Shown piece by piece: positions 2,885-38,621 of a DNA stretch of 41,263 nucleotides. The stretch comes from a virus. Each line of letters begins with the position of its first letter. Within the stretch, counting starts at the first letter, position 1. Location: positions 1-41,263 of the IMG/VR virus record IMGVR_UViG_3300028840_002667; one strand, 5' to 3'. The notes under the pieces were generated by a model that was not told the origin of the DNA, searched no databases, and saw only the letters and a program-made list of their open reading frames with translations. A program made the position numbers and the translations under genes.

Positions 2885-3393
2885 TGGGCAAACAAAAATC
2901 ATTATTCATGGACGGGGGGGCGCTGTTTTCAAAGTGTAGGCGGTACCGGTATGTACTCCGGAGGACCTGGAGCGGTAACCCGGAGTACTGTATGTTTATC
3001 GGTTTAAATCCGAGTACGGCGGACGCCGAGATGGACGATAACACCATACGGCGCTGTATCCGCTACGCCCAGGCCTGGGGCTACAGCGGTATGTTTATGG
3101 TGAACCTATTCGCCTATCGGGCCACGGATCCGGCCGATATGATGGCGGCCGAGGATCCCGTAGGGCCGGAAAACGACTACCATATTAAGAGGATGGCCGC
3201 GAAATCTAAAGAAATCATAGCGGCTTGGGGAAACCATGGCGCCTACCTGGACCGGGACCAGGCTATTCTTAACATGGGTTTTGACCTCCGGGTACTGGGG
3301 TTAACCGGCCAGGACCAGCCGGTACACCCGCTATACCAGCCAAAGGACGCATTACCGGTGCATTTCGATTACCGGGATTATAAAAAGGGTTAG
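2884..3393 (+). CDS. DUF1643 family protein
   Basis: 169-aa protein with the DUF1643 signature: a short N-terminal strand region, then FIGLNPSTAD and DDNTIRRC at about residues 39-60, and MVNLFAYRATDP near 80-90. The family is common in phages and scattered in bacteria, and its biochemical role is not known to me. It follows the large terminase with a one-base TAATG overlap, so it is probably co-translated with the packaging genes. Nothing in the sequence shows a catalytic mechanism. The family call is good, and function is left open. Confidence 0.8.
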   Translation: MGKQKSLFMDGGALFSKCRRYRYVLRRTWSGNPEYCMFIGLNPSTADAEMDDNTIRRCIRYAQAWGYSGMFMVNLFAYRATDPADMMAAEDPVGPENDYHIKRMAAKSKEIIAAWGNHGAYLDRDQAILNMGFDLRVLGLTGQDQPVHPLYQPKDALPVHFDYRDYKKG

Positions 3394-3413
3394 TTAAATT
3401 GAGTTAAAGTAAA

Positions 3414-3424
3414 GTCACTGTGAC
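3414..3424. promoter_or_regulatory. Perfect palindrome upstream of the ParB-like gene
   Basis: GTCACTGTGAC is a 5-1-5 perfect dyad in the 76-bp AT-rich gap between the DUF1643 and ParB-like genes. It sits about 45 bp before the ParB-like start codon, a plausible position for an operator or a ParB-type binding site. No convincing -35/-10 pair was found with it. Function is inferred from symmetry and position only. Confidence 0.35.
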
Positions 3425-3469
3425 ATTAATTTATCTTAATAAGTCAAAGGAAAGGGAGGTAAAGCGGTT

Positions 3470-5278
3470 ATGAGCGAGGAGTATAGGGAATTGAAGGTAA
3501 CGGAGATAGAGGCCAGCCCGTTAAATCCCCGTAAGGAATTCGACGGGGAGGGCTACGAGGAGTTTAAACAATCGGTAAAGGAAAAAGGGATAGTACAGCC
3601 CGTACTCGTACGGCCGAAACCAAAAGGCAAGGGTTACGAACTGGTGGCCGGGGAACGGCGGCATAGGGCGGTATGTGACCTGGCCGAGGGGAACGGCGAC
3701 GTAAAGGCGGCCACCATACCGGCCATCATACGCGATTTAGACGACGACGCGGCGCTAGAAATCATGTTGATAGAAAACCTACAGCGTAAGAATTTAACGC
3801 CGCTAGAGGAAGCCGAGGGCTTTAAATCGTACATTGATAAGAAGGGCAAGGGAGGTCTCCGGGCGCTATCGGAAAAGACCGGCGTAGACCAGCGATACAT
3901 ACGTCGGCGTATTGCTATCCTGGAATTACCCAAAACGATCTTGAAACAATGGGATAAGGGCAACCTCCGCCACGGCCACCTAAAGGAACTGCTAAAGGTC
4001 CCCGACAAGAAAGAGCGTAACGAACTGGCCAAGTGGGCGGCCGATTTCAAGGGCGCCCTACCCGTACGCGAGTTGGCCGAGCATGTACAGGAAAACGCCA
4101 TAGACCTGGCCGGGGCCTTATTCGATGTAGAAAAAGTATGTGTTAACAGCGGGTGTAATCATAGATCCGATTACCAAATTGAAACCATGGGCCTAAAGGG
4201 TACGCCATCTAACCATTGCTTGCATAAGAAGTGTTTTAAGCAGAAACAAAATAACTGGTTACTGAGTAATTGGAAATCGACGCCCTACCGCAAAGGCCAC
4301 AAGACAAACGGTTTTCGGTTTAACGAGGATGTAGAATACTTTCAGTGGGAACGCATAGACCGGCGGCATAAGGCCTGTAAGGATTGCAAGGATTTTGTAA
4401 CCCTGTTAGGGCTGGATGGGGACGTAAGATACGGCAAGGTGTGTATTGGGGATGAAGAATGCTATAACAAGTACTATAAATGGGGAGAGCCGAAAGAGGA
4501 TAAAAAGAAAAAGGAGGCCGGGGAAAAGAAAACGGAAAACCGGGCGCCGGGGGAGCCTCGCGTATCCTGGCATGGGGAGCATTTCCGGGAGGCCTTTTAT
4601 CAGGAAATACTACCCGGCCGCCTCCAGGATGTACCGGCAGACGACGTAAAGGCGGCCCGTATGGCTTTGTTCAGCCTGGTTATCTCAAATCATGATGTAC
4701 TAGACTGGTTTTCAGAGTGGGGTGAAAATGAGGATATATTACATGAGGAAACGCCGTATTATAGCCGGTATTTGGAATATACAGAGGCATGGGAAAAAAT
4801 ACTCTACATGGACCGGACCACGACCCTGGAGGCATTAAAACAGGCCTCGGCCAGGGTAGTAATGCAGGGCCAGACCGGGGAGGCCTCCAGGAGCGCGATA
4901 GCGGCCCATATCGGCGTATCGCTAGAAAAGGACTGGCGAATAACGGCCGAGTATTTGGAAAAGAAAACCAAGGCGAAAATAATCGAAATAGGCGAGCAGT
5001 TTAAAATATTTCGGGATGAAAAGGTAAAGGAATATTGCGCCAGTGAGCTGTTAAAGGAACCGGGGAAATACAAAAACTTTAAAAAGCCGGAGCTGGTAAA
5101 GGTGTTTTTGGAGAGCGGCGTGAATTTAGCCGGCGTAGTGCCGGTGGAGATCCTGAACGTGAAACGGCCGGCGGGGCCGGAGCTTGTTAACGTACTGGCC
5201 GGGGAAGATTTCGACGGGCCGGACCTGGCCAGCCTGGGGGATCCGGGCGAGGCGGCGGAGGCCTCTATAGAGGCGTAA
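3470..5278 (+). CDS. Large orphan ParB-like protein with cysteine-rich middle
   Basis: 602-aa protein. Residues about 5-110 are a ParB/Spo0J N-terminal domain with the nucleotide-binding box GERRHRA (about 61-67) and IENLQRKNLTPLEEA. Residues about 120-150 are the ParB helix-turn-helix (LSEKTGVDQRYIRRRIAIL). Residues about 223-340 contain two clusters of Cys and His (CVNSGCNH, then CKDCKD with later Cys), suggesting metal binding. The C-terminal 250 residues are not recognised. The start follows a very strong AAAGGGAGGT site. There is no ParA partner nearby, so classical partitioning is doubtful. It may act as a DNA-binding regulator, nuclease or DNA organiser. It lies between the packaging and head genes. 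Confidence 0.8.
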   Translation: MSEEYRELKVTEIEASPLNPRKEFDGEGYEEFKQSVKEKGIVQPVLVRPKPKGKGYELVAGERRHRAVCDLAEGNGDVKAATIPAIIRDLDDDAALEIMLIENLQRKNLTPLEEAEGFKSYIDKKGKGGLRALSEKTGVDQRYIRRRIAILELPKTILKQWDKGNLRHGHLKELLKVPDKKERNELAKWAADFKGALPVRELAEHVQENAIDLAGALFDVEKVCVNSGCNHRSDYQIETMGLKGTPSNHCLHKKCFKQKQNNWLLSNWKSTPYRKGHKTNGFRFNEDVEYFQWERIDRRHKACKDCKDFVTLLGLDGDVRYGKVCIGDEECYNKYYKWGEPKEDKKKKEAGEKKTENRAPGEPRVSWHGEHFREAFYQEILPGRLQDVPADDVKAARMALFSLVISNHDVLDWFSEWGENEDILHEETPYYSRYLEYTEAWEKILYMDRTTTLEALKQASARVVMQGQTGEASRSAIAAHIGVSLEKDWRITAEYLEKKTKAKIIEIGEQFKIFRDEKVKEYCASELLKEPGKYKNFKKPELVKVFLESGVNLAGVVPVEILNVKRPAGPELVNVLAGEDFDGPDLASLGDPGEAAEASIEA

Positions 5279-9384: not shown

Positions 9385-10383
9385 ATGCAACCGACAACAG
9401 ATAGTGTACACCGATCAGCGGCATTATCCGCCGTTAGTATCGGTTACAAAAATCAAATGTTTATAGGGGACCGGGTATTCCTGAATGTACCCGTTAACAA
9501 AAAGAACGACTATTTCTATTATTTCCAGAAGGGCGCGCTTTTCCGGTTAGACGCCGGATTGCGGGGGCCTGGTGCAGCGGCCAGGCGGGGCGGTTATGTG
9601 GTGGCGGACACGGAGTATGTATGTCAAGAACGGGCTTTTGCCCACGAATTGCCCATAGAGACGATTGAAAACGCCGATGATGTCTTGCAGCCCTGGGAAA
9701 CCGGCGTATCTTTTGCCACGTTAAAGGTGTTACTGGCCAAGGAAAGGGCCATAAGTACTTTATGTTGTACGGCCGCGAACTGGACGAGCAGCGAGGACGC
9801 AACGGGAGGCTGGGCCGCCGGGGCGAGCAATACGTTTATAGAGGACGTATTGGGCGCTAAAAACACGGTGCGCCAGTTAATAGGGATTAATCCCAATGTC
9901 ATGATCATGGACAGCAAAACCCTGAACCAATTAAAGCAAGAATCCAGCGTACTGGACCGGATTAAATATACCGGGACCCAGGGGAGACCGGCGGATGTTA
10001 CGCCGCAAACGTTAGCGGCACTTTTTGAAATGGACGAGGTATTAATAGGCGGCGCCATATACTCGGATGCGGAGGAAGTGCTGGCCGGTACGGATTTTAA
10101 CGCGGTGGATCTGTGGGAGACGAACGCTACAAAGGGATCCTGCTTTATCTTTTACCGGCCGCCAATGGCCGCCAGGGAAATGCCGAGCGCCGGTTACGTT
10201 TTTCAGTGGAAGGGCGGGACTAATCATCCGGACCTGGTATTACCCGGTGATTCTTACCGCGACGTACGGTACTGGTGGGAAAGCAGCCCGAAACAGTGGG
10301 TTATCGAGGCCTCGGAATACTTCGACGCCCAGGTGACCATGGCGGATGCCGGTTTTCTCTTTTACGATACGATTTTAACATAA
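9385..10383 (+). CDS. Major capsid protein
   Basis: 332-aa shell protein of a widespread HK97-fold phage capsid family. Recognisable segments are ALSAVSIGYKNQMFIGDRVF, then VPVNKKNDYFYYFQKGALF, a Tyr-Cys segment TEYVCQERAFAHELPIET, and the C-terminal WKGGTNHPDLVLPGDSYRD with DAGFLFYDTILT. It starts after GAAGGGGGAATT and follows the decoration protein gene. It lacks an N-terminal scaffold domain, consistent with a separate scaffold in the protease gene. A GC hairpin (10401-10424) follows its stop codon. Confidence 0.92.
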   Translation: MQPTTDSVHRSAALSAVSIGYKNQMFIGDRVFLNVPVNKKNDYFYYFQKGALFRLDAGLRGPGAAARRGGYVVADTEYVCQERAFAHELPIETIENADDVLQPWETGVSFATLKVLLAKERAISTLCCTAANWTSSEDATGGWAAGASNTFIEDVLGAKNTVRQLIGINPNVMIMDSKTLNQLKQESSVLDRIKYTGTQGRPADVTPQTLAALFEMDEVLIGGAIYSDAEEVLAGTDFNAVDLWETNATKGSCFIFYRPPMAAREMPSAGYVFQWKGGTNHPDLVLPGDSYRDVRYWWESSPKQWVIEASEYFDAQVTMADAGFLFYDTILT

Positions 10384-10466: not shown

Positions 10467-11216
10467 ATGAGCAAATGGAAAAGAAAAAATAAGTTTTTTA
10501 TGGCTATTGCCGTAGCGGCCGTAATCATAACCGGTATAAGCGCATATGTGAGCGCGGTATATTATGACGGGTATTTCACAAATGTATTGGCCAAGGGGAG
10601 CATAACGGACCAGGGTACTTTAGCGGTAACGGGCGCCGCGACGTTAAGCAGTACCCTGGCGGTAACCGGCGCGATTACGGCTACGGGAGGTGTAACCGAT
10701 GTAACGGGAGGTGTTACGGCCGGGGAGATAGCCGACGTAGTACGCTATATCCCTTTGCCTATAATGGCTTTTACCCACAATGGCAGTGCGGTCATTACTT
10801 CCAGTACGGCGCCCGGCCTCGAATCAGACGACTATATAAGCAATATCGTATGGGCCGACGGTGAGACGACGCCGGTACAGATCAGTTTTCGGGTACCGGG
10901 CGATTATGCCAGCGGCGGGGCTTTCAAAATATTGGCTACGGAGTCGAATAGCACGACGCCGAACCAGGTGGATTTTGACGTATACGTTAATGCCGACGGG
11001 AGCGCGGCCGACTCCAGCGCGACGGACCAGACGCCGGTAGCCCTGGCCGGTACGACTTCGACGCCGGACGAAATCACCTTGACAGTGGCTACCGATTTCG
11101 CCAGTTTGGCCGCTGGTAACTGGGTGACTTTGAGGATATGGCGGGATGATACGGCTACCGGAAGCGGAGACCTGGAGGTAAAGGGTGCAGTATATTATTA
11201 TACAGCGACGCAGTAA
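10467..11216 (+). CDS. Exported beta-rich protein with virion-like repeats
   Basis: 249-aa protein. Residues 1-10 are basic, and 11-31 form a hydrophobic signal peptide or anchor (FFMAIAVAAVIITGISAYVS). Residues about 45-85 hold short repeats (GTLAVTGAATLSSTLAVTGA, then TDVTGGVTAGE) of the kind seen in phage fibres. The remainder is Ser/Thr/Asp-rich and beta-like with few Lys. The start follows AGGGGGGG. The last 32 bases overlap the O-antigen ligase-like gene. No enzyme motif is visible. A signal peptide is unusual for a virion protein, so it may be displayed on the cell surface. Function is unknown. Confidence 0.72.
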   Translation: MSKWKRKNKFFMAIAVAAVIITGISAYVSAVYYDGYFTNVLAKGSITDQGTLAVTGAATLSSTLAVTGAITATGGVTDVTGGVTAGEIADVVRYIPLPIMAFTHNGSAVITSSTAPGLESDDYISNIVWADGETTPVQISFRVPGDYASGGAFKILATESNSTTPNQVDFDVYVNADGSAADSSATDQTPVALAGTTSTPDEITLTVATDFASLAAGNWVTLRIWRDDTATGSGDLEVKGAVYYYTATQ

Positions 11217-12312
11217 CGCCACCATACCGCTGATGGCTGCCGGGCTGCTTATAGGTGCTGCGGTAATCCGGATCCCCTGCGACGATATCAGGTTATCTTT
11301 TCGATTAGTATTTGAAATTGCCGTAGTGGCGGGCCTGGGGCTAATCGTATGGCAGTTTAACCGATGGATTGCTAGTTTTCTAGGGCTGGCCCTGATATCC
11401 ATGATGTATCCTTTTTACGACCGCCATAGTTATTTGGCATTCCAGGCGGTGTTTTACGGGGCGGCCTGGTACATGCTGTTAGTACTCGTAATTGACAGGG
11501 ACCGGGTAAACGTCATGTTAAACGCTATCTGTATTTTGGCCTTTATCCATATTGCCATGTTGATTTTACAGAATTTTAACATGGATCCCTTGTTTACGCC
11601 GGTAAGGGGTGGCCGGGATGTGCCTGTAGGCCTGATGAGTAATCGTAATATGGTATCGGCGTTACTGGCCTTTTGTTTTCCGGCCTTTTTACGGCGAGGT
11701 TGGGCCTGGGGGATCCCGGTGGTATTGTTGGGCCTGTTGCTGGCCAAATCGACCGGCGGCGCCATGGCCCTGGCCGCCGGTATGGTATTTTATTGTGTGA
11801 TCCGGGCCGCCGGAAATCGAACCAGGGCGGAGATAATCGGAAATGTACTCATACTCGCAGCGGTGGCCGTCGGTATAATAATTTTTTGTGGTTATGTAGA
11901 TCGGCCTAATTTTTTCAATGCCCGTTTGGATGCATGGATAAACGCCCTGCGATATTATGAACAACATTGGATTATGGGCGCCGGCATCGGCCATTGGAAA
12001 GACGTTTTTCAACGTCATATGTTGACAGGCGGTACGTTATGGTGGACGACCGCCCACAATGAATACTTGCAAGGTCTATTTGAAATGGGGATAGGTTTTG
12101 CTTTAATCCTTTTTGGATATTTCCAGGCGGCGGCCAGGCGTTACCTGGCATTAAGTAAGCAGTACCGGGCGGCGGCTGAGATCCCGGCCACGGCCCTTGT
12201 GGTAATCCTGGTAAACAGCCTGGTTAATTTCCCTTTCAGGATAGCGACAACGGCCATGATGGCGATAACTTGGATGACCCTATTCGATATCAGGACGATA
12301 GTTAATGACTAG
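11185..12312 (+). CDS. O-antigen ligase / Wzy polymerase-like membrane protein
   Basis: 375-aa polytopic protein with about ten hydrophobic segments. It has the Wzy_C-type signature between residues about 250 and 300: DAWINALRYYEQ, GAGIGHWKDVF, then AHNEYLQGLFEMG. This family joins or polymerises O-antigen units on the periplasmic face of the inner membrane. The GTG start at 11185 follows GGAGGT, inside the end of the previous gene; an ATG at 11233 has no good ribosome-binding site. Codon use and GGATCC content match the head genes, so it is not a very recent import. Ligase, polymerase or an altered-specificity variant cannot be separated by sequence. A serotype-changing role is inference. 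Confidence 0.85.
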   Translation: MQYIIIQRRSNATIPLMAAGLLIGAAVIRIPCDDIRLSFRLVFEIAVVAGLGLIVWQFNRWIASFLGLALISMMYPFYDRHSYLAFQAVFYGAAWYMLLVLVIDRDRVNVMLNAICILAFIHIAMLILQNFNMDPLFTPVRGGRDVPVGLMSNRNMVSALLAFCFPAFLRRGWAWGIPVVLLGLLLAKSTGGAMALAAGMVFYCVIRAAGNRTRAEIIGNVLILAAVAVGIIIFCGYVDRPNFFNARLDAWINALRYYEQHWIMGAGIGHWKDVFQRHMLTGGTLWWTTAHNEYLQGLFEMGIGFALILFGYFQAAARRYLALSKQYRAAAEIPATALVVILVNSLVNFPFRIATTAMMAITWMTLFDIRTIVND

Positions 12313-12619
12313 GCTATGCAAAGCATATTTGACGATCTGCTTTTTTTGCGCGGTGATAATTGCCAGTGTTTTAATTGCCGTTTTTGGTGATTTCAATCAT
12401 TCAATGCCATACACGCGGCAAACCGCTATAAAATGGCCACAAGCCAGTTATGTATCACCTTATTTACTTTTAGCGGCCGAGAGATTGGGAAAGTGGGAAT
12501 ACTGGGAGGAAAACCGGCATGTTTTTAGATTCTTTATACGGTTAGACCTGGGCGAAATGTACGACGATATTTTAAATTTTTTAAACGAGCGGGATTTTTA
12601 CGGGAGGGTTAACCCATGA
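12305..12619 (+). CDS. Small single-TM protein
   Basis: 104 aa with an N-terminal hydrophobic segment (residues about 8-28, LTICFFCAVIIASVLIAVFG) and a soluble remainder rich in aromatic and charged residues (KWPQASYVSPYLLLAAERL, EYWEENRHVFRFFIRLDL). It overlaps the end of the O-antigen ligase-like gene by 8 bases, so translational coupling and a shared function are plausible. The soluble part should face the periplasm if the segment is an uncleaved anchor. I do not recognise the family. Confidence 0.6.
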   Translation: MTRLCKAYLTICFFCAVIIASVLIAVFGDFNHSMPYTRQTAIKWPQASYVSPYLLLAAERLGKWEYWEENRHVFRFFIRLDLGEMYDDILNFLNERDFYGRVNP

Positions 12620-13089
12620 TGGAAAAAAGAAAATCCTATTTAAGAATAGTTTTTGTAATTTTAATCATGATGGTAATAACAATTATCATCGGCGCAAAAG
12701 CTAACGCCGACGGAACGGTGACGGTAACATATACCCGGATAGGTGACGAGTATACCCTGGTTATTTTCGACTGGACGGCCGACGCCGCCGCTGCAACGGT
12801 ACCGGCAACGTCTACGAAAAGCCTGGCGGGATATATCGTTAAAGTAGTCACGGACCCAGGAGCTACGGCGCCTACGGATAATTATGATATTACTCTTACG
12901 GATAGCGATAGCGTAGACGTAATGGGCGGCGCCCTGGCGAATAGAGATCAGTCAAGCACAGAACAGGCAGTACCCAAAATAGGCGCCGCATATGGAGCAA
13001 GTTTCTTCATTGGTACTCTAACATTAAACCTTTCCAATAATTCCGTAAATTCGGCTACCGGCGAAGTTAAGGTATACATATCGAGGTAA
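12616..13089 (+). CDS. Secreted beta-rich protein
   Basis: 157 aa with a clear Sec signal: basic MMEKRKSYLR, a hydrophobic core of about 18 residues, and a likely cleavage after AKANA (about residue 32). The mature part is Thr/Val/Asp-rich (GTVTVTYTRIGDEYTLVIF, then VGGALANRD-like turns) and probably an all-beta domain of about 125 residues. Two adjacent ATG codons (12616, 12619) are possible, and the first overlaps the previous stop. It is part of the exported cassette following the O-antigen ligase-like gene. No known family is recognised. Confidence 0.7.
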   Translation: MMEKRKSYLRIVFVILIMMVITIIIGAKANADGTVTVTYTRIGDEYTLVIFDWTADAAAATVPATSTKSLAGYIVKVVTDPGATAPTDNYDITLTDSDSVDVMGGALANRDQSSTEQAVPKIGAAYGASFFIGTLTLNLSNNSVNSATGEVKVYISR

Positions 13090-13094
13090 AGATT

Positions 13095-14516
13095 ATGAAA
13101 AAAACAATACTGTTTTTATCGCTATTTATACCGTTAATAATTTGTCAGTATGTAAAGGGCGCTCCAGTAGTCATGTATGCTACGGACCCGACAAATCCAG
13201 GCGGTGACATTACTATGATTGCCGATGATTGGATAGGCCTCGGATCGGTGGCGGGCCGGATGATATTCAAGGATGAAACTACGGATATATTACAGATAGG
13301 GCATGCCGATGTACGTATACTGAGTGATTTCTGTTTACAATTAGGATCGAATAATAATGTAGCCGTATGCACAGATGAAGATACGGCACAGACGGTGTGG
13401 AATACCGCCGCAACGGGTGGGAATCAAATTATAATTGGAAGTTATTTAGCGAATGCCAGAGATTACGATCACGCGGCGGAAACAAACCCGACATTATTTA
13501 TTCATTCCGCGACCGATCCAAATACAAACAACACGCAATGGATCAGCCTTGCACATGATACCTCATATGGTGTCATTAATTGGGGATCGGGAGGGCTTAA
13601 GCTGGCCGGTGAGGATGTGTATCTGATAGATACGGGCGATGATACGGAGCTATACATAGATTCGTATGATGACGATCCCACAGATAACGCTATTTTATAT
13701 TTAAGATCCGCAGACAACACTTTTGCATCTCCGGCGGCGATTGATTCAGGCGACTACCTGGGGCAAATTAATTTCGAAGGACATGACGGATCGGCTTTTG
13801 TAACCGGCGCGAATATCGTAGCGGTGACTGACGCCAATTGGAGCGGTAGCGAGCATGGTACGGATTTGTGGTTTCAAACGGTAGACGGATCGGGCAGCCT
13901 GGCGACGGTTTTAACCTTAACGGCCGAGGGTTATGCCGGATTTCAGGAGGCCTCGCCAAATGCCGTAGTTGAAATATCGGGTAATGGCAGCACAGCATTT
14001 CCTATCTTTATGGTATCATTGGATGACGATAACGACGGCGACTATTTTAATGTACAAGGGGACGGGGATATAGGGATGGGTACAAGTGACCCGCAGGGAA
14101 ATCAACAGTGGGCCTCGGCAGATACTCACGGGGGCTATGTGTGGCGCATTTATTCAGCGACAAGCGGGGCATTGACCGGGGCGACGGATAAAATCGAACT
14201 TAATATACCTACGGGCTGGATCATAAAAACCTGTCAATTGCATGTTAAAACCGCCGTAGTTGACAGCGGCGGGGACGATACATGGTCAAGTGAATTAAAC
14301 GATGGCGCCCAGGAGGAGGCGATAAGTGCAGGGTCGGCGGCATCACAAAATACAAATGTACAACATTACGCACATGCGGACGCCGGGTATGGAGGTACAT
14401 TAACCGATGCCGAAACAGATATATTACTTACTCCAAATGGGGGCAATTTCACGCAGGGTGAAATTGAAGCGGATTGCCTTTGTCTAGGTTTTGATACCTG
14501 GGATAACGAGTCATAG
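13095..14516 (+). CDS. Secreted fibre-like protein
   Basis: 473 aa. It has an N-terminal signal peptide (MKKTILFLSLFIPLIICQY, cleaved near residue 23). The body resembles phage fibre stalks: DVYLIDTGDDTELYIDSYDD, VLTLTAEGYAGFQEASPNAV, and DGDIGMGTSDPQ, which recalls the GxGxGTxxP turns of fibre tips. The C-terminal part (VWRIYSATSGALTGATDKIE) looks like a separate beta domain ending in two Cys. Composition is less GC-biased than the head genes. A fibre-like protein with a Sec signal is odd: it may be displayed on the host surface rather than assembled in the cytoplasm. Function is unknown. Confidence 0.7.
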   Translation: MKKTILFLSLFIPLIICQYVKGAPVVMYATDPTNPGGDITMIADDWIGLGSVAGRMIFKDETTDILQIGHADVRILSDFCLQLGSNNNVAVCTDEDTAQTVWNTAATGGNQIIIGSYLANARDYDHAAETNPTLFIHSATDPNTNNTQWISLAHDTSYGVINWGSGGLKLAGEDVYLIDTGDDTELYIDSYDDDPTDNAILYLRSADNTFASPAAIDSGDYLGQINFEGHDGSAFVTGANIVAVTDANWSGSEHGTDLWFQTVDGSGSLATVLTLTAEGYAGFQEASPNAVVEISGNGSTAFPIFMVSLDDDNDGDYFNVQGDGDIGMGTSDPQGNQQWASADTHGGYVWRIYSATSGALTGATDKIELNIPTGWIIKTCQLHVKTAVVDSGGDDTWSSELNDGAQEEAISAGSAASQNTNVQHYAHADAGYGGTLTDAETDILLTPNGGNFTQGEIEADCLCLGFDTWDNES

Positions 14517-14531
14517 GAAAAGGGGGAGATC

Positions 14532-14858
14532 ATGAAATATATTGTGCTTTATGTTTGGTTACAAACGTTAATTGTAGCTTGCCCGTCGCCCGAAACGGTA
14601 CCGGATAAATATGGGAGAGCTTATATCCCGTCCTATAGAACGACTGAGGTATGTACAAGACAAGTAAGACATCATATGCAAAAGTTATTTGCATCACTTA
14701 TGGAGGCGAAGAAATTTGTAGCCGAGGCCTCCAAAGAGTATGATTTGGTGGAATTTCGGCTTAGAAAAATTAACATGCAAGATGAAGCAACATTAAGCGG
14801 GAAAGAACCGGTGAAGGAAGATCCCTTACAAGAAGATCCGGTAAAAAATAACAATTAA
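14532..14858 (+). CDS. Small putative lipoprotein
   Basis: 108 aa. The first 17 residues end in a lipobox-like LIVAC with C17, preceded by a hydrophobic stretch with only one Lys. The mature part is helical and charged (RQVRHHMQKLFASLMEAKKF), then a repetitive Glu/Asp/Pro tail (KEPVKEDPLQEDPVKNNN). The start follows AGGGGGAGATC. It sits between two other exported proteins. Lipidation is predicted rather than certain because the n-region is short. No family is recognised. Confidence 0.6.
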   Translation: MKYIVLYVWLQTLIVACPSPETVPDKYGRAYIPSYRTTEVCTRQVRHHMQKLFASLMEAKKFVAEASKEYDLVEFRLRKINMQDEATLSGKEPVKEDPLQEDPVKNNN

Positions 14859-14878
14859 TTAAACAAGGAGAAAAGATT

Positions 14879-15259
14879 ATGGAAAAAGTAAAAAAGATAA
14901 TGATGATTTTTGTAATAGGTGTTTTGTTTATCATGATCAATGTTGGGATATCATCGGCCGACGAAAAAGAGGATATGACAAAAGTACTTATAAAATTATC
15001 AGGTGAGTTGATAGATTTATATTACAAGATGAGTAAAGCCTCCGAGATATGGAGCGATAACGAATATCAGAGCGGCGGTAGCAAAGAAATTACCCAGGGC
15101 GATATTGATGCCATGAGCCTCGGCGTTACAGTAACCGCCGCCCAAATTGCAAATGTAATTACCACTATTAACAATCTAAAAAAATTCATGACTAATGAAG
15201 ATCCGACGAACGCCGATTATTTAAATTATCTAAACAGTGTACGGAGTAAATCCTGGTAA
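14879..15259 (+). CDS. Small secreted helical protein
   Basis: 126 aa with a Sec signal peptide (MEKVKKIMMIFVIGVLFIMI, cleavage likely after SSA at about residue 27). The mature part begins DEKEDMTKVLIKLSGELIDLYYKM, and residues about 70-105 (TQGDIDAMSLGVTVTAAQIANVI) are also helical. The start follows AAGGAG. It closes the run of exported genes. It is not recognised; its helical fold contrasts with the beta-rich neighbours. Confidence 0.65.
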   Translation: MEKVKKIMMIFVIGVLFIMINVGISSADEKEDMTKVLIKLSGELIDLYYKMSKASEIWSDNEYQSGGSKEITQGDIDAMSLGVTVTAAQIANVITTINNLKKFMTNEDPTNADYLNYLNSVRSKSW

Positions 15260-15455: not shown

Positions 15456-16994
15456 ATGCAGGAAATTATTAAAAACAGAACCTTGAAGAAAAAAGAGTTT
15501 TTAGACAAGGGCAGCATTTACCATGAAATGCATATAGGAGATATCCACTATGAATATGGTGGTAATTTAGTGGATGTTGACTATCATATTGAGGAATTCG
15601 CTAATTATTGGCAGGTGGAGAAGGCCAGTTATCGACTCTATATATCAAAGGACTTTTTGGGTTCCGGGAATCCCTATAACGATAAATTGTTTGTATGGCG
15701 TAATCGTAGAGTTGGTTCTAATCATGGTTTATCTTGGCAACCCTTCCTTGTGGGGTTTTCAAGTCCGCTGGCGCCTACGGGATCAACGAAAACGTTGGGA
15801 GTGGCGCAAAGCGTTAATGGGGTGTTCTCTCAATCTCAAGATGGTGGAAACGGAATTCTTACATGGCGGAACGCTTTCGGGAAAGACATTGACTTCCAAA
15901 TCATGATCACACGGGGAGGAATACGAACCATACTCTGTATTAACAATATTGTGGCTTTGAATCTCGTGGCGAACCCAGGCGATCTTGTATTACACAAACA
16001 GATTGAATTTGAGGGTGCTGCGAAGTTAAGGACCTCAGACCTTGCTTATGATTGGGACAAGAAGACCGATTACGAGACAAGCGGCTCATATTATGTTTAT
16101 GAGAATAGCCAGGATATGCTGAAGCGGACGATTGTGAAGGAGGGTAAGGTATGGGATTCTCAAATGATAGATGTTGCTCCGACAGTTCCAGACAGAAGAT
16201 ATGAAAACGTTAGAATCATCTTTGCCGAGATTGATGGGGTTCTCACCACGATAAAGGTTGTCTCAAGAACGTTCCTGGAATCAGCTATTTACCCTATTTA
16301 TACTGATGCCTCTACGGCGTATGCTGATACTGGTGGTGATGGATATACTTATCGTGAGCAATCTACATGGAATGATACTCATGATGGTGATGGCGAGAAT
16401 GCTTATCCTAGTAATAGCGGCGATGATGAAGATATGGTTAGAGCATCTCTAAAAGCATCTACCGGAAAATACATGATACAGCGAGGACATTTCCCGTTCG
16501 ATTTGAGTGGGGAGAGCAGTGGAACGGTAGACTCAGCAACACTATCTATATTTGGTGGGGATGTTACCCAAATTGGAGGTCCAACAGACGATGGAGTTAC
16601 CGTAGGAGATTCAGGACAGGCAGATGGGTCCAGTTTGGTTGCTGGTGATTATAACAATTTCACTATTGATAGTATGCCTGAATTTATAGATAGTAGACCA
16701 GCAATTACTACTTGGCATACTGACGCGTACCATGATATGACGCTTAATTCGAATGGCAGGAGCTGTGTGGAAAGCGCATTAGGATCTGGGTACGCCACAT
16801 TAGGCCTTAGAGAAAAACACCACGATGTTGATGACAATGCCCCAGGAAGTGATGTTTATCAGATTGTAAAGACAAGATACGCAGACTATACGGGGACAGG
16901 GAGCGATCCCAAGTTGACATGGACTTTGGTTGCCGCTGCCCCAACTGGTATAATTTATGGGCCTTTAGTCGGGCCATTGGGAGGGCCGGTATAA
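15456..16994 (+). CDS. Putative tail appendage protein
   Basis: 512 aa with no signal peptide. The N-terminal half (residues about 20-270) contains IHYEYGGNLVDVDYHIEEF and a long beta-rich region with WRNAFGKDIDFQIMITRGG. The C-terminal half (about 285-490) resembles a carbohydrate-binding jelly-roll of the DNRLRE kind (TYREQSTWNDTHDG, RGHFPFDLSG, VDSATLSIFGG). It ends with a Gly/Pro tail. Codon use is T-rich with CTT, TCT and CCA, unlike the head genes, and the gene has no GGATCC. It is probably an exchanged receptor-binding or fibre gene; the family is not certain. Confidence 0.65.
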   Translation: MQEIIKNRTLKKKEFLDKGSIYHEMHIGDIHYEYGGNLVDVDYHIEEFANYWQVEKASYRLYISKDFLGSGNPYNDKLFVWRNRRVGSNHGLSWQPFLVGFSSPLAPTGSTKTLGVAQSVNGVFSQSQDGGNGILTWRNAFGKDIDFQIMITRGGIRTILCINNIVALNLVANPGDLVLHKQIEFEGAAKLRTSDLAYDWDKKTDYETSGSYYVYENSQDMLKRTIVKEGKVWDSQMIDVAPTVPDRRYENVRIIFAEIDGVLTTIKVVSRTFLESAIYPIYTDASTAYADTGGDGYTYREQSTWNDTHDGDGENAYPSNSGDDEDMVRASLKASTGKYMIQRGHFPFDLSGESSGTVDSATLSIFGGDVTQIGGPTDDGVTVGDSGQADGSSLVAGDYNNFTIDSMPEFIDSRPAITTWHTDAYHDMTLNSNGRSCVESALGSGYATLGLREKHHDVDDNAPGSDVYQIVKTRYADYTGTGSDPKLTWTLVAAAPTGIIYGPLVGPLGGPV

Positions 16995-16995
16995 A

Positions 16996-18117
16996 ATGCT
17001 AGACTTTGGAACAGTAAAACCAGGGACTACTCTATATATTCCATGGAATACTTTTTCCAGCGATGACCCGTCTGCATCGATGACAATTACCGGTTTGGCG
17101 ACCACGGATATAGAGATCTATAAGAATGGGTCTACCACACAACGGTCGAGTGACAGCGGATATGCCCTGCTTGACACTGATGGTATTGATTTTGATTCGG
17201 TAACAGGAATCCATGGGATCTCTATAAACTTGGCAGACAATACCGATGCGGGATTCTATGCTTCCGGTGCCCAATATTGGGTAGTTATCGCTTCTATTAC
17301 ATTGGATGCTGGCACCATCAACTTTGTTGCGGCCACGTTCCGTATTGGGTATCCCGATGCCCTTCTAGATACCACTATTGCCTCACTGTCCACCCAGACC
17401 AGTTTTACGCTGACCGCTGGACCCGCAGAAGATAATGCCCTGAATGGGATGTACTGCATTATCCATGATATTGCTAGTGCGGTGCAAATGGGTTATGCGG
17501 TTATCAGTGATTATACCGGCGCGACAAAGACAGTAACTCTGGCGGCTGGCACGACCTTTACTGCAGCAGCAGGCGACAATATATCTATTATGGGTCCGAT
17601 GCCACTACAACCTGCGACATCTGGGCGTACACTTGGGGTGGAATCCGACGGGGACTTGACCAAGGTAAATACGCTTGACGGCCATACTGCTCAAACCGGA
17701 GACACTTATGCTCTTGCTAACGGGGCAGCCGGGTTTGTGGCCATTGATACCGTAGTTGATGCGATTAAGGCGGTTACGGATAATTTGCCTGATAGCGGGG
17801 CTTTGTCCAGCCTGGCAACAGCGACAGCCCTTGCCACAGTTGATACCGTAGTTGATGCGATTATGGCGGTTACGGACAATTTGCCTGATAGCGGGGCGCT
17901 CAGCTCCCTGGCCACAGCGGCGGCTTTAACTACCGTCGATACGGTGGTGGACGCGATCAAGGCCGTCACGGACAATTTGCCCGATAGCGGGGCGCTCAGC
18001 TCCCTGGCCACAGCGGCGGCTTTAACTACCGTCGATACGGTGGTGGACGCGATCAAGGCCGTCACGGACAATTTGCCTCGATACGGTGGTGGACGCGATC
18101 AAGGCAAAAACAGATAA
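16996..18117 (+). CDS. Structural protein with 32-aa tandem repeats, broken at its 3' end
   Basis: 373 aa. The N-terminal half is beta-rich (TTLYIPWNTFSSDDPSASMT, then DAGTINFVAATFRIG) and likely virion-associated. From residue 250 it has near-identical 32-residue repeats (VDTVVDAIKAVTDNLP, then DSGALSSLATAAALTT). The fourth copy stops after 16 residues, where the frame changes and ends in a 12-residue out-of-frame tail. The repeat continues in the frame of the next ORF (from 18080), which strongly suggests that both were one protein. GGAGG at 16980-16985 precedes the ATG. Codon use resembles the previous gene. Confidence 0.7.
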   Translation: MLDFGTVKPGTTLYIPWNTFSSDDPSASMTITGLATTDIEIYKNGSTTQRSSDSGYALLDTDGIDFDSVTGIHGISINLADNTDAGFYASGAQYWVVIASITLDAGTINFVAATFRIGYPDALLDTTIASLSTQTSFTLTAGPAEDNALNGMYCIIHDIASAVQMGYAVISDYTGATKTVTLAAGTTFTAAAGDNISIMGPMPLQPATSGRTLGVESDGDLTKVNTLDGHTAQTGDTYALANGAAGFVAIDTVVDAIKAVTDNLPDSGALSSLATATALATVDTVVDAIMAVTDNLPDSGALSSLATAAALTTVDTVVDAIKAVTDNLPDSGALSSLATAAALTTVDTVVDAIKAVTDNLPRYGGGRDQGKNR

Positions 18118-26468: not shown

Positions 26469-29400
26469 ATGGAACGGAAAGCAAAAAGTCTTATGAAAAG
26501 CCTTAAAAACAGCCAAATTCGCCGGATACAAAAAAAGGTATTTATTTATGTGGCCTTTATTACCGGGATCCTTTTTGCGGCGGCTTCGGCCCATGCGCTA
26601 GTGGCTACCGTAATCGGCGCCCTGGCCGGTGCAGCATTTTTCTTTAAAATGGGTATGATGGTTACGGTAGGCGGTAGTTTACTCTTTTCCGCCGGGGCCG
26701 GGACCATAGGCGCCCTGATTGCAGGGGCCGCCCTGGGCGCTATCGGGGGTAGCGCCATGGGTCTACCCAGGGCTTTGACGCCGGACCTCCCGGAGGTAGG
26801 CAAGGACTCCCCTAATTATAAAGAGGATTACCCGAAGGCCACAGTACAGGAAGGTACGCCCGTACCATTGCCTTATGGCCGTACCCTGGCGGCCGGAAAT
26901 ATCGTACGGCAAAATGACGCCGCCGCAGCCGATTACATAGAGTTTATCATATGTCACGGCCGGGGAACGGTGGATAAATTTTTAGGCCATTGGATAAACG
27001 GCGTAGAATGGACCGATTTACGCAATGGTAATCATGCCCGATGGGCGCAAGAAGGGGAAAGCAATCAAAGCGGCGTAACTCACTTATTCAGTGACGCCGA
27101 GGCCTCCAATTACCGGGGCTATGCCTTAACCGAGGTACGTTTAGCCAAAGGGGATGAAATACGGGGCCTGGACAATATCTATGCCGTAGGCCTATGGCGG
27201 GAGTGCTTAGAGATTGGCCAGGACGCCGGAGGGTCTAAGAGCTGGACCCGTAACCCGGCAAAAATTATATGGGATCATTACATAACTCAAGAGGGCTACG
27301 CGGCTTCGGAGCTGGACAGTAACGCTTTTACGGCCCTGGAAAGCTATTGTGATAATGTACCGAGTGACGATAGCCAGCCCATACGGCCGACACCCGTAAG
27401 CGATGACATGGTAACGGAGGCGGCCCGTACGGCGAGCTGGCAGTACAAAGCAAAATGGGCATTGAGGAAAGATAAGAGCCTGACGGGCGAGGATGCAAGG
27501 GCGGCATGGAAAGAGGAGGCCACGACCAATAAACGTATCAACATAGATTTCAGCATAGCTCAAGTGATAGACAAAATGAGGCTTGAAAACTATCACAACA
27601 GCGGCGCGGATACCGATGTAGGAATACAAAACTTTGTCATACAGGGATCCAATAACCCGGCGAGTTTTGCCGATACGAGCTACGCAAGTACGGGCTGGAC
27701 CGATCTATTAACAGACAGCGCCTCCCAGCATGCCGCCAGTGACGCAAGCGATCCGGAGGAATTCACCATAAGTAATTCCACGGCCTACCGGTATTATGCC
27801 ATAAAGATGGCGGACAATCACGGTGACGGCAATTATATGGGATTCAGGGATCTAACCTTTTACGGTAAACAGCCCAGGTATACTTTTGACTTTGTTTTCG
27901 ACACAAATATTGAAAAGGTGGATGCCCTGAAGATTATGTGGGATAGCTTTAATGGTAAGACCATAGACAGCCAGGGAACCATTAAGCCGGTATGGGACGC
28001 CGCTCAAATGCATGACGGCGCCGGAGGGTTGACCACAAAATCCAGTAGTTTTAGTTTTGACGAGGATAATATAGTGCCGGGTAGTTTTACCTGGGGCCGG
28101 TTAAAACGGCCTAACATAGTGAGGATCCATTTCAGGGATAGCGCCGACAATTTTAAAAAGACATCGGTAGAACTGCGGGACGATAAAGACATAAACGACC
28201 GGGGCGAGATAGTACATAGCGAAACATGCTGGTACATTACGGAGCGATCCGTAGCGCTACGCCGATGTAAATATAAATTTGACAAGGCCCGGTATACGGA
28301 TCATGCTTGCAGGTTGACCGGAGATCCGAGTAGCCAGGCCATCGAAATATATGACCGCGTAGATGTAACGGATCCAAAAGGCATGTGGACGGCCAAGGAT
28401 TTTGTCGTAATCGAAAAAGACGAGGATCAATACGGCCGCCCAATGTTTTACCTGGAGGAATATAATAGCGGCATATATAATGATGATGGTTTTGAAGTGC
28501 AGCCCGGCTACCGGAGCCACCTACCACATCCCAGTGAAGTATCCCCGCCCAGTACCATACATACCCTGGCAAACATAACGACCGGTACAAAGCATAGTTA
28601 TGGCAGTATATCCGTAAAGATCACGCCGCCTAATTGGCCTCATTATTCAAAAACTAAGGTTTTCGGATCCAATGATGATAGTACTTTTTACTATGTGGGC
28701 GAAACCGACGGCGGCAAGGACCTGGTTATTAACGGTATGGGGACGCTATACCAGCCGGGCGATACTGTATATATTAGATTGGTAAACGTAAACGCAAACG
28801 GAACACAAGAGCCATTCCCGACTTCCTCGGATGGCCAAATTGTAACCGCCTCGGCCGTACGTTTGGGATCCTTTTATGCAGGTGATACGGACTTGTGGGG
28901 CGGTAACGCGGCCCTGGGTAACGCGGCCACGACCATAGTACTAGGGGACCTGGCCGATACGCCCAAAATAGCGATAGGGACCACGACGGCCGATAGTATG
29001 ACCCTGGCCAATATGGCTACCCATCCGGGATTTTACGCCGACGCTACGGGAGATTGCCGCTTTGGTGGCAATGGCGGCGGAGCGGCCTGGGATCAATCGG
29101 AAAGTACTTTTACAGTGGAGGGAATCCTCCAGGCATCGGAAATACACATACCAGACAAGGACAGTACCGCAAGCAGTTTTCATGTGCAAACGGATGGCGA
29201 TACCTGGTGGGGATGTACCGAGACAAATTTTAATGCAGACAATAATAATGCTACGGCCTATATACTCAAGACCGGGGCTGCAAAATTCCAAAGTGTAACG
29301 CTCAGTGATAATGTTATATTATCGGGTTTACAGGCGGGATCCGATATTGATGGCCAATATTTGACGGCCCTATCAGTGGATACAGCCGCAATAGCGGCTT

Positions 29401-37234: not shown

Positions 37235-37465
37235 TTGCAAAATCAACATAAAAATATTCCTGAAATTATTTATCCTCCATACTCCCTACGGGTAAAGGAC
37301 GCGGCCATACATTTTGGGATAGCGGCCCAAACATTATACCAGTGGGTGAATGATGGAAAACTGATTAGGGGAAAGCATTACTTGAAAATCGGCCGAGCTG
37401 TTTGTATTATCCGAGAGGAGTTTATTAAATTCATGTTTATGGAGGACGGTACAAATGGCGGTTAG
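37235..37465 (+). CDS. Excisionase-like HTH protein
   Basis: 76 aa, beginning at a TTG three bases after the previous stop, without a clear ribosome-binding site. The core (LRVKDAAIHFGIAAQTLYQW, then HYLKIGRAVCIIREEFIKF) is an excisionase/MerR-type winged helix. It overlaps the integrase start by 11 bases, the usual arrangement for xis-int pairs. It would bend attL/attR DNA and favour excision. Confidence 0.75.
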   Translation: MQNQHKNIPEIIYPPYSLRVKDAAIHFGIAAQTLYQWVNDGKLIRGKHYLKIGRAVCIIREEFIKFMFMEDGTNGG

Positions 37466-38621
37466 GGCAAGGGGTAAAATTCTATATATCAATTTCCGGT
37501 GTTACCTCCCGGACGGCCGGAGGGTGCGGTGCGACGAATCAACTGGGTTAACCGATAACAAGAAAAACCGAAAAGCCGCAGAGGCCAAGGACCGGGCTAT
37601 AAAATACCATCTACGGGCGGGAACATTTGATTACCTAACCTATTTCCCCGACGGATCCAAAGCCAAGTACTTTAAAAAGCCTACCAGCGATCTACTTTTT
37701 TCAGACTGGTGGAATCAGTGGCTAGATGAGAAAACCATACGCCCGAATACCGCTAGGGGCTGGAATTCTACCTACCGGGTGCATATCGGCCCGCAATTCG
37801 GACACAGGCCGCTGTCCGAGATAACCGAGCATGAAATACTTGTTTTCCGTAAAACCCTGGAGGGCCGCCTCCAAGGATCCACTATTAACGATAAGATCAT
37901 AAAGCCGTTATGTATGGCCCTATACAGGGCCTTTAAACGCGGCCTTATAGATGCCTATCCTTGTGAGGAGATAGGCCGCCTAGACGAATTACCCGTAGAT
38001 ATCAATCCTCTAAACTTTGGGGAATTGGCCAACCTATTAGATACCCTGAAAAAGAAAAACCGGCCAGCCGAGCATGATCTGATTTTCATATGGAGCCGTA
38101 CCGGCCTACGGCCTGGGGAATTGTGCGCCCTGGAGTGGAAACACGTAGACTATTTCAATGCAAAATTGATGATTAGACAGACCATGTTACCCTCCGGATC
38201 CGTAGGGCCGCCAAAAACAAAACATAGTATACGGGACGTAGACATAAGGCCGGAGGTATCCGACGCTTTTACAAGACAGGAGCAGCGTACCGGCCTGATG
38301 GATTCATACGTATTTCTGACGGCAAGGAATAACCCTTACAGTGATCCCTATCTCCGGAAACGGTTTAGGTTTTGGCTTCGACTGGCCGGGCTATCCTATC
38401 GGCCGCCCAAACAGATACGCCATACCTTTGCTACCCTACACCTGGCCGCCGGTGAAAACATAGGCTGGGTATCAAGGATGCTGGGCCATGCATCCCCCAA
38501 GATTACATGGGATAGGTATTACCGGTTTATCCCCAATCTAACAAGAGACGACGGCAGCGCCTTCGAAACCGAAATCAAGAAGCAAAAAGGTAGCAAACAG
38601 GTAGCAACCAAAAATAAATAA
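37455..38621 (+). CDS. Tyrosine integrase
   Basis: 388-aa site-specific recombinase. An Arg-rich arm-binding start, a core-binding SAM-like domain at about 75-165 (FSDWWNQWLDEKTIRPN), and the catalytic domain at about 185-360. Catalytic residues are R219 (TGLRPGE), Lys in the beta hairpin (K254 or K256), R322 and H345 (LGHASPKIT), and the nucleophile Y355 in DRYYRF. In box II (KQIRHTF) the usual His three residues before the Arg is K319, a less common variant. It lies directly before a candidate attP. Confidence 0.93.
   Translation: MAVRARGKILYINFRCYLPDGRRVRCDESTGLTDNKKNRKAAEAKDRAIKYHLRAGTFDYLTYFPDGSKAKYFKKPTSDLLFSDWWNQWLDEKTIRPNTARGWNSTYRVHIGPQFGHRPLSEITEHEILVFRKTLEGRLQGSTINDKIIKPLCMALYRAFKRGLIDAYPCEEIGRLDELPVDINPLNFGELANLLDTLKKKNRPAEHDLIFIWSRTGLRPGELCALEWKHVDYFNAKLMIRQTMLPSGSVGPPKTKHSIRDVDIRPEVSDAFTRQEQRTGLMDSYVFLTARNNPYSDPYLRKRFRFWLRLAGLSYRPPKQIRHTFATLHLAAGENIGWVSRMLGHASPKITWDRYYRFIPNLTRDDGSAFETEIKKQKGSKQVATKNK

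Follow-up and report, generated by a model that had tools for sequence, protein, structure and literature searches.

A conserved late gene pair of tailed phages, coding for an exported protein and a WaaL-fold ligase, and its possible role in periplasmic protein glycosylation

The window, i.e. the whole stretch of DNA analysed, was a 41,263-base virus record of IMG/VR, the gene content of which indicates a temperate siphophage. On the plus strand, genes coding for a terminase, a ParB-like protein, a lambda-type portal, a protease, the major head protein, a connector, a tape measure protein, and tail proteins were found in this order; past the tail genes, those for a CII-like regulator, an integrase, and replication followed. 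A pair of overlapping genes, coding for an exported protein and a membrane ligase of the Wzy_C family (Table 1), was preceded on its 5' side by the genes for terminase, portal, protease, and major head protein, and followed on its 3' side by genes for head closure, neck, tape measure, and tail. Both the position of the ligase gene between capsid and tail genes and its overlap with a gene for an exported protein had been reported in a preliminary description of this DNA and were found as reported. Signal or membrane segments occurred in most genes from the capsid gene up to 15.3 kb (10467-15259; genes at 10467, 11185, 12305, 12616, 13095, 14879, and 14532, the last with a lipobox-like LIVAC), making this region an envelope-directed island within the virion operon. 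Two large genes (512 and 373 aa; 15456-18117), without a significant family match and with a lower GC3 (0.37 and 0.49), separated this island from the connector genes. Promoter- and terminator-like sites around the pair were not more frequent than in shuffled sequences.

Table 1. Features of the window in and around the exported protein/ligase gene pair
Feature	Position	Strand	Remarks
Major capsid protein	9385..10383	+	phrog_1005, E 3.8e-64; upstream edge of the two-gene unit
Exported partner, putative glycan acceptor	10467..11216	+	signal sequence, YYDGYFTN motif, fibre-like middle, CBM-like C-terminus
Candidate O-glycosylation site, Thr114-Ala-Pro116 codons	10806..10814	+	loop before a beta-strand; putative function
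SD-like GGAGG	11174..11178	+	in the conserved LEVKG codons of the exported gene, 6 nt 5' of GTG
Gene overlap, 32 nt	11185..11216	+	Wzy_C gene reads in the +1 frame of the exported gene
Wzy_C-family membrane glycan ligase (putative protein O-oligosaccharyltransferase-like)	11185..12312	+	375 aa, GTG start
Arg247 codon	11923..11925	+	aligned near E. coli WaaL R288 / PglL R298; 35/35 phage members
His291 codon	12055..12057	+	aligned with the catalytic His, E. coli WaaL H338 / PglL H349
Small membrane-anchored protein, 104 aa, possible accessory	12305..12619	+	3' of the Wzy_C gene in L016 and L025; absent from L002
Second exported protein, 157 aa	12616..13089	+	N-terminal signal sequence; behind the pair in L002, L009, L016, and L031
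Third exported protein, tail-fibre-like (phrog_9942)	13095..14516	+	N-terminal signal sequence; 86% identity in L016
Integrase	37455-38621		25 kb from the ligase gene

The ligase gene was complete and of the WaaL/Wzy_C type, in agreement with the preliminary description. Its product matched Wzy_C (PF04932) with an E-value of 1.2e-9 and 38.6 bits (cut-off 31.7), and a match at E <= 0.01 was obtained for 24 of 30 family members; 34 homologous ligase sequences came from other phage loci. In the AF2 model (mean pLDDT 89.5, pTM 0.89), the chain crossed the membrane in about 12 TM helices, and TM9 and TM10 were joined by a long loop bearing His291 and Arg247. The top match among solved structures was WaaL (7TPG; Foldseek E 1.9e-4, probability 1.00, TM 0.59; VIA Z 21.0 over 307 residues, rmsd 4.2), followed by the related SEDS enzymes FtsW and RodA (Z 13 - 15), and there were no other convincing matches. 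The ligase/Wzy fold given in the preliminary description is supported by this predicted structure. The dN/dS ratio of the ligase gene was about 0.16 (versus its closest relative, L002), which is similar to that of the portal and capsid genes and indicates purifying selection. Its codon use correlated with that of the head genes (r 0.84) and of the tail genes (r 0.87) of the window; this is in line with the long residence that had been proposed for it, but not with a codon style that is specifically head-like. The Pfam match, the confident model, the purifying selection, and the phage-like codon use show that the gene is no chance open reading frame, and its product is a Wzy_C/WaaL-fold enzyme.

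Residue numbering and the residues named as important in WaaL and PglL were taken from the literature (PMC3643930). All 34 phage members with data had His291, and E. coli WaaL shared the HN at this position, as did most host Wzy_C proteins. None of the 35 phage members had the SRG-motif arginine (WaaL R215, PglL R224), which E. coli WaaL, the Wzy proteins of phages D3 and VarioGold, and the five host Wzy_C proteins used for comparison all possessed. Similarly, PglL_A (PF15864) was not matched by any of 30 members at E <= 0.01. Given the missing SRG arginine and the failure to detect PglL_A, the window enzyme does not qualify as an orthodox WaaL or PglL. PilO (TfpO) likewise has neither PglL_A nor the PglL motifs (PMC3643930), and by analogy the window enzyme may work in the manner of TfpO (PilO).

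The signal sequence of the exported partner was judged by eye (a basic start and a hydrophobic stretch, often with AxA). In its AF2 model (pLDDT 84.7), the C-terminal domain (residues ~89-249) formed a beta-sandwich resembling carbohydrate-binding modules (CBMs), with Z-scores of 12 - 12.8 against CBM6/35/36 folds over 122 - 130 residues at a sequence identity of 8 - 12%. Matches among viral models included phage tail-fibre, minor-tail, and collagen-like proteins, and Eph receptors and Cry proteins scored nearly as high as the CBMs, so that the predicted fold is by itself no proof of sugar binding. The exported protein could nevertheless be a sugar binder instead of an acceptor, one that presents the polysaccharide product or the donor to the ligase or keeps it close by. 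CBMs being the top structural matches and the C-terminal domain being the part of the partner that tracks the enzyme agree with such a function, which is nonetheless held to be improbable: CBM-like beta-sandwiches frequently occur without sugar binding, as the Eph receptors and Cry proteins illustrate, and in the Wzy_C pairs known so far the partner is an acceptor (PMC3643930). Position 114 of the partner was Ser or Thr in 33 of 35 homologues, making it the most conserved Ser/Thr of the C-terminal domain, and Pro116, present in 35 of 35, was the sole invariant residue of this domain; in the model, Thr114-Ala-Pro116 was in coil conformation. An efficient PglL site in AniA is Ser-Ala-Pro (PMC3643930), compared with Thr-Ala-Pro in the window partner. 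Thr114 in its [S/T]-x-P loop is a lead for a glycosylation site, although the conservation of this loop may be structural instead.

At the junction of both genes, a purine-rich stretch like the GGAGG of the window was found in L002, L016, L025, and L030. The ligase gene was in the +1 frame of the exported gene in 25 of 28 tabulated pairs (L032, which ends at a contig edge, was assigned by hand), the commonest overlap being 29 or 32 nt. In four loci (L026, L028, L029, and L038), no ATG, GTG, or TTG preceded the conserved start of the ligase, making an unusual start codon, reinitiation, or other recoding possible there. The near-constant +1 frame and these few relatives without a usual start codon led to the consideration of a programmed frameshift fusion. 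Ordinary internal initiation appears more likely, given the SD-like GGAGG and the GTG or TTG starts in most other loci. In L041 and L047, the genes did not overlap and the ligase was in the frame of the exported gene, opening straight after its stop codon.

Conservation of the pair was examined from both sides. A scan with an alignment of seven ligases yielded 31 viral-contig loci and two MAG loci, corresponding to 29 distinct loci when near-identical contigs were counted once, the window was included, and L046 (cut upstream) was excluded. A homologue of the exported protein was encoded directly 5' of the Wzy_C gene in 27 of these, the weakest homologues being those of L048 (BLAST E 7e-8) and L049 (9e-5). 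The two exceptions were L039, with a signal-peptide protein without significant similarity, and L043, a viral contig with a family ligase (3133-4233) and no upstream exported partner. Conversely, 15 loci, of which 13 were distinct, were recovered with the exported protein as query, and a Wzy_C gene came next in all 13, the sequence of L057 being cut within this gene. The two scans are not wholly independent, as the queries originated from known pairs, though each query held one protein type. Variants of the arrangement were tandem Wzy_C genes (39% and 33% identity to that of the window) behind one exported-protein ORF of 569 aa with repeated fibre-like units (L033, 7983-10207), tandem exported paralogues followed by a single Wzy_C gene (L050, 3637-6152), and, elsewhere in the record of L029 (G006, 26481-26921), a further Wzy_C-like match that was weak (E 1.9e-9). 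The evolution of the exported domain and that of the ligase were weakly correlated (Spearman 0.32, Mantel p 0.012); for example, L056 and the window shared 62% identity in the exported domain and 23% in the ligase. A constant acceptor with enzymes changing according to the host glycan would give such a weak correlation, as would a faster drift of membrane proteins, and the case for a specific co-evolution of the two genes is not strong. The exported protein and the WaaL-fold ligase are a conserved late two-gene unit, even if they do not serve in glycosylation.

This unit was found in phages of different build. The major head proteins of the carriers differed, being phrog_1005 in the window, phrog_371 in L028 and L055, phrog_3437 in L058, and others elsewhere. 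A tail tubular protein (phrog_394 and phrog_9239) was encoded in L058, and the head-tail adaptor of L029 belonged to phrog_332; these two read as podophage-like, so that the carriers appear to span siphophage-like and podophage-like genomes. The usual site of the pair was directly behind the capsid gene and ahead of the connector genes, or, in L029, ahead of the head-tail adaptor gene. In L016, the capsid genes were unrelated to those of the window, yet its exported protein was 75% and its third exported protein 86% identical. These comparisons indicate that the pair is exchanged between phages with unrelated capsids. Such exchange would also suit a passenger (moron) pair that serves the lysogen and has no late-stage role, the more so as a benefit to lysogens is assumed for the related D3 and VarioGold Wzy genes (PMC9658991). 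A passenger role seems very unlikely, given that strand and position in the late operon are constant across capsid types, that purifying selection is on par with that on capsid genes, and that promoter- and terminator-like sites of the pair's own do not exceed chance.

In L019, L020, and L021, proteins were encoded that resemble the partner in the signal sequence and the YYDGYFTNVLVKG stretch only, without its C-terminal domain. These two elements were joined to other C-terminal domains (L019, 2303-2986; L020, 4016-4699; L021, 10007-10513), suggesting that the N-terminal part is a reusable module. No Wzy_C gene was present in the stretches examined of L019, L020, and L021, nor in those of L004, L005, L011, and L012. 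The joint lack of C-terminal domain and Wzy_C gene in L019-L021 indicates that the ligase tracks the C-terminal domain of its partner.

Cellular matches of the ligase were confined to two phage-like contigs, one in a Desulfobacterales MAG and one in an FCB-group MAG. A widespread cellular origin was rejected, as no family-level match of the ligase (E <= 1e-30) was obtained in a further 296 genomes from the phylum to which the former belongs or in a further 131 from that of the latter. For the exported domain, a scan of 395 genomes from the Desulfobacterales MAG's phylum returned the same phage-like contig only. In a phylogenetic tree, the phage ligases were separate from the host Wzy_C proteins and E. 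coli WaaL. The D3 and VarioGold proteins fell inside the phage ligases on a very long branch (3.3), a placement that is probably due to long-branch attraction, and the tree does not prove a single origin of the phage ligases. A common origin with the VarioGold pair was rejected as well, because the exported neighbour VG_p26 did not match the profile of the exported domain.

Bacterial O-oligosaccharyltransferase genes often lie beside the gene of their acceptor, and the same anatomy of the phage pair suggests protein glycosylation. Specifically, the phage ligase may transfer a host lipid-linked glycan onto the exported partner, making a glycoprotein in the periplasm, a proposal that we consider to have an even chance of being correct. 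That the pair is a mobile protein-glycosylation unit, residing behind the capsid gene in tailed phages of several capsid types and acting in the periplasm during lytic growth, is put forward more tentatively, at somewhat short of even chances. According to this scheme, the exported partner would cross to the periplasm by means of its signal sequence, presenting the CBM-like beta-sandwich on a fibre-like stem, and the ligase would be translated from an internal ribosome site near the end of the exported gene. The ligase would then take a glycan from an undecaprenyl-linked donor of the host and move it to the partner, most plausibly to the Ser/Thr of the [S/T]-x-P loop (Thr114 in the window). 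The resulting phage glycoprotein would appear in the periplasm late in infection, from where it could reach the cell surface or, upon lysis, come into contact with virions. It may serve to cover or obstruct the surface of the cell, to draw glycan away from LPS, or to engage the released virions. An acceptor role of the partner is suggested by the tight pairing with one exported family in unrelated phages, together with the [S/T]-x-P loop, and the location of the ligase gene outside an LPS locus counts for glycosylation too. Counting against glycosylation are the missing SRG arginine and PglL_A, the weak co-evolution, and the partnerless ligase of L043, whereas the acceptor role is weakened by the ability of a CBM-like fold to bind sugars instead of carrying them.

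The preliminary description had favoured the surface polysaccharide of the cell as the target, with superinfection exclusion as the outcome. An O-antigen ligase or polymerase acting on LPS or another surface polysaccharide could indeed change the receptor late in infection, block superinfection, and reduce the loss of progeny on debris, with the exported protein as a separate envelope-blocking factor travelling with the enzyme. WaaL as the nearest solved fold, the location of the gene in a group of genes bearing signal or membrane segments (10.47-15.26 kb), and the existence of phage Wzy genes that change the O-antigen (D3 wzy-beta; PMC4815439; VarioGold p25, PMC9658991) are consistent with this. 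Yet, a near-constant neighbour with a single exported domain and the movement of the pair from one phage to another, unrelated one would be left unexplained, and the D3 and VarioGold Wzy proteins attach by a very long branch only and are encoded outside the virion operon. Action on LPS and a separate blocking factor, taken jointly, are considered the main rival to protein glycosylation, though a rather unlikely one, and the tight pairing with an exported partner and the [S/T]-x-P loop put protein glycosylation in the place of the original leading idea.

Relatives of the pair were not encountered among described phages. No relative was found by tblastn in 50,697 annotated phage records with three family members of the ligase and two of the exported protein, nor was a close or annotated phage relative found by megablast with 9-20 kb. 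The ligase was without a family in PHROGs and NCBIfam, and a sequence search of solved structures gave no match for either protein. Full-text searches, the coverage of which stopped short of most subscription journals and of all bioRxiv preprints, brought up no description of a protein O-oligosaccharyltransferase encoded by a phage together with its acceptor. If protein glycosylation is confirmed, phages would make glycoproteins outside the cytoplasm from sugar donors of the host, which would bear on the part played by exported phage proteins in adsorption, in superinfection, or in the coating of virions, and the pairs would provide glycobiology with a compact and diverse set of acceptors and transferases. 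If it is not, the conserved late unit still contains a WaaL-fold enzyme without an arginine thought to be important.

The phage pair was compared with known systems. With WaaL (e.g. 7TPG and E. coli WaaL), the phage ligase shares the fold over nearly the whole chain, the Wzy_C region, and the large loop with the catalytic His and the Arg; it differs from WaaL in that SRG R215 has no counterpart, that the window gene lies outside any LPS gene cluster, and that an exported-protein neighbour is near-constant. The partner model has its beta-sandwich in common with CBM6, CBM35, and CBM36, but is a phage-exported protein. Phage D3 wzy-beta and VarioGold p25 are phage-borne Wzy-type genes too, but they are encoded apart from the virion genes and on the opposite strand, and neither is accompanied by a homologue of the exported partner of the window. 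In particular, a distance of about 2.5 kb separates attP from D3 wzy-beta, a serotype conversion gene that does not share the strand of the virion genes, whereas the window gene is on the late strand in the interval between capsid and connector, which bears out the late-region residence, unlike that of conversion genes near attP, noted in the preliminary description. A parallel in gene arrangement is offered by the bacterial PglL/TfpO (PilO)-pilin pairs. Pilin genes lie next to 21 of 31 PglL homologues, and in Acinetobacter baylyi, ComP, the target of the neighbouring PglL, was no longer glycosylated once pglL had been deleted (PMC3643930). Likewise, the transferase gene of the window is adjacent to and co-directional with an exported gene, the product of which would be the acceptor. 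Both systems thus combine a Wzy_C enzyme with conserved His and Arg and a co-directional exported-protein gene, the partner being a pilin in bacteria and a CBM-like fibre protein, next to an enzyme without PglL_A and SRG arginine, in phages.
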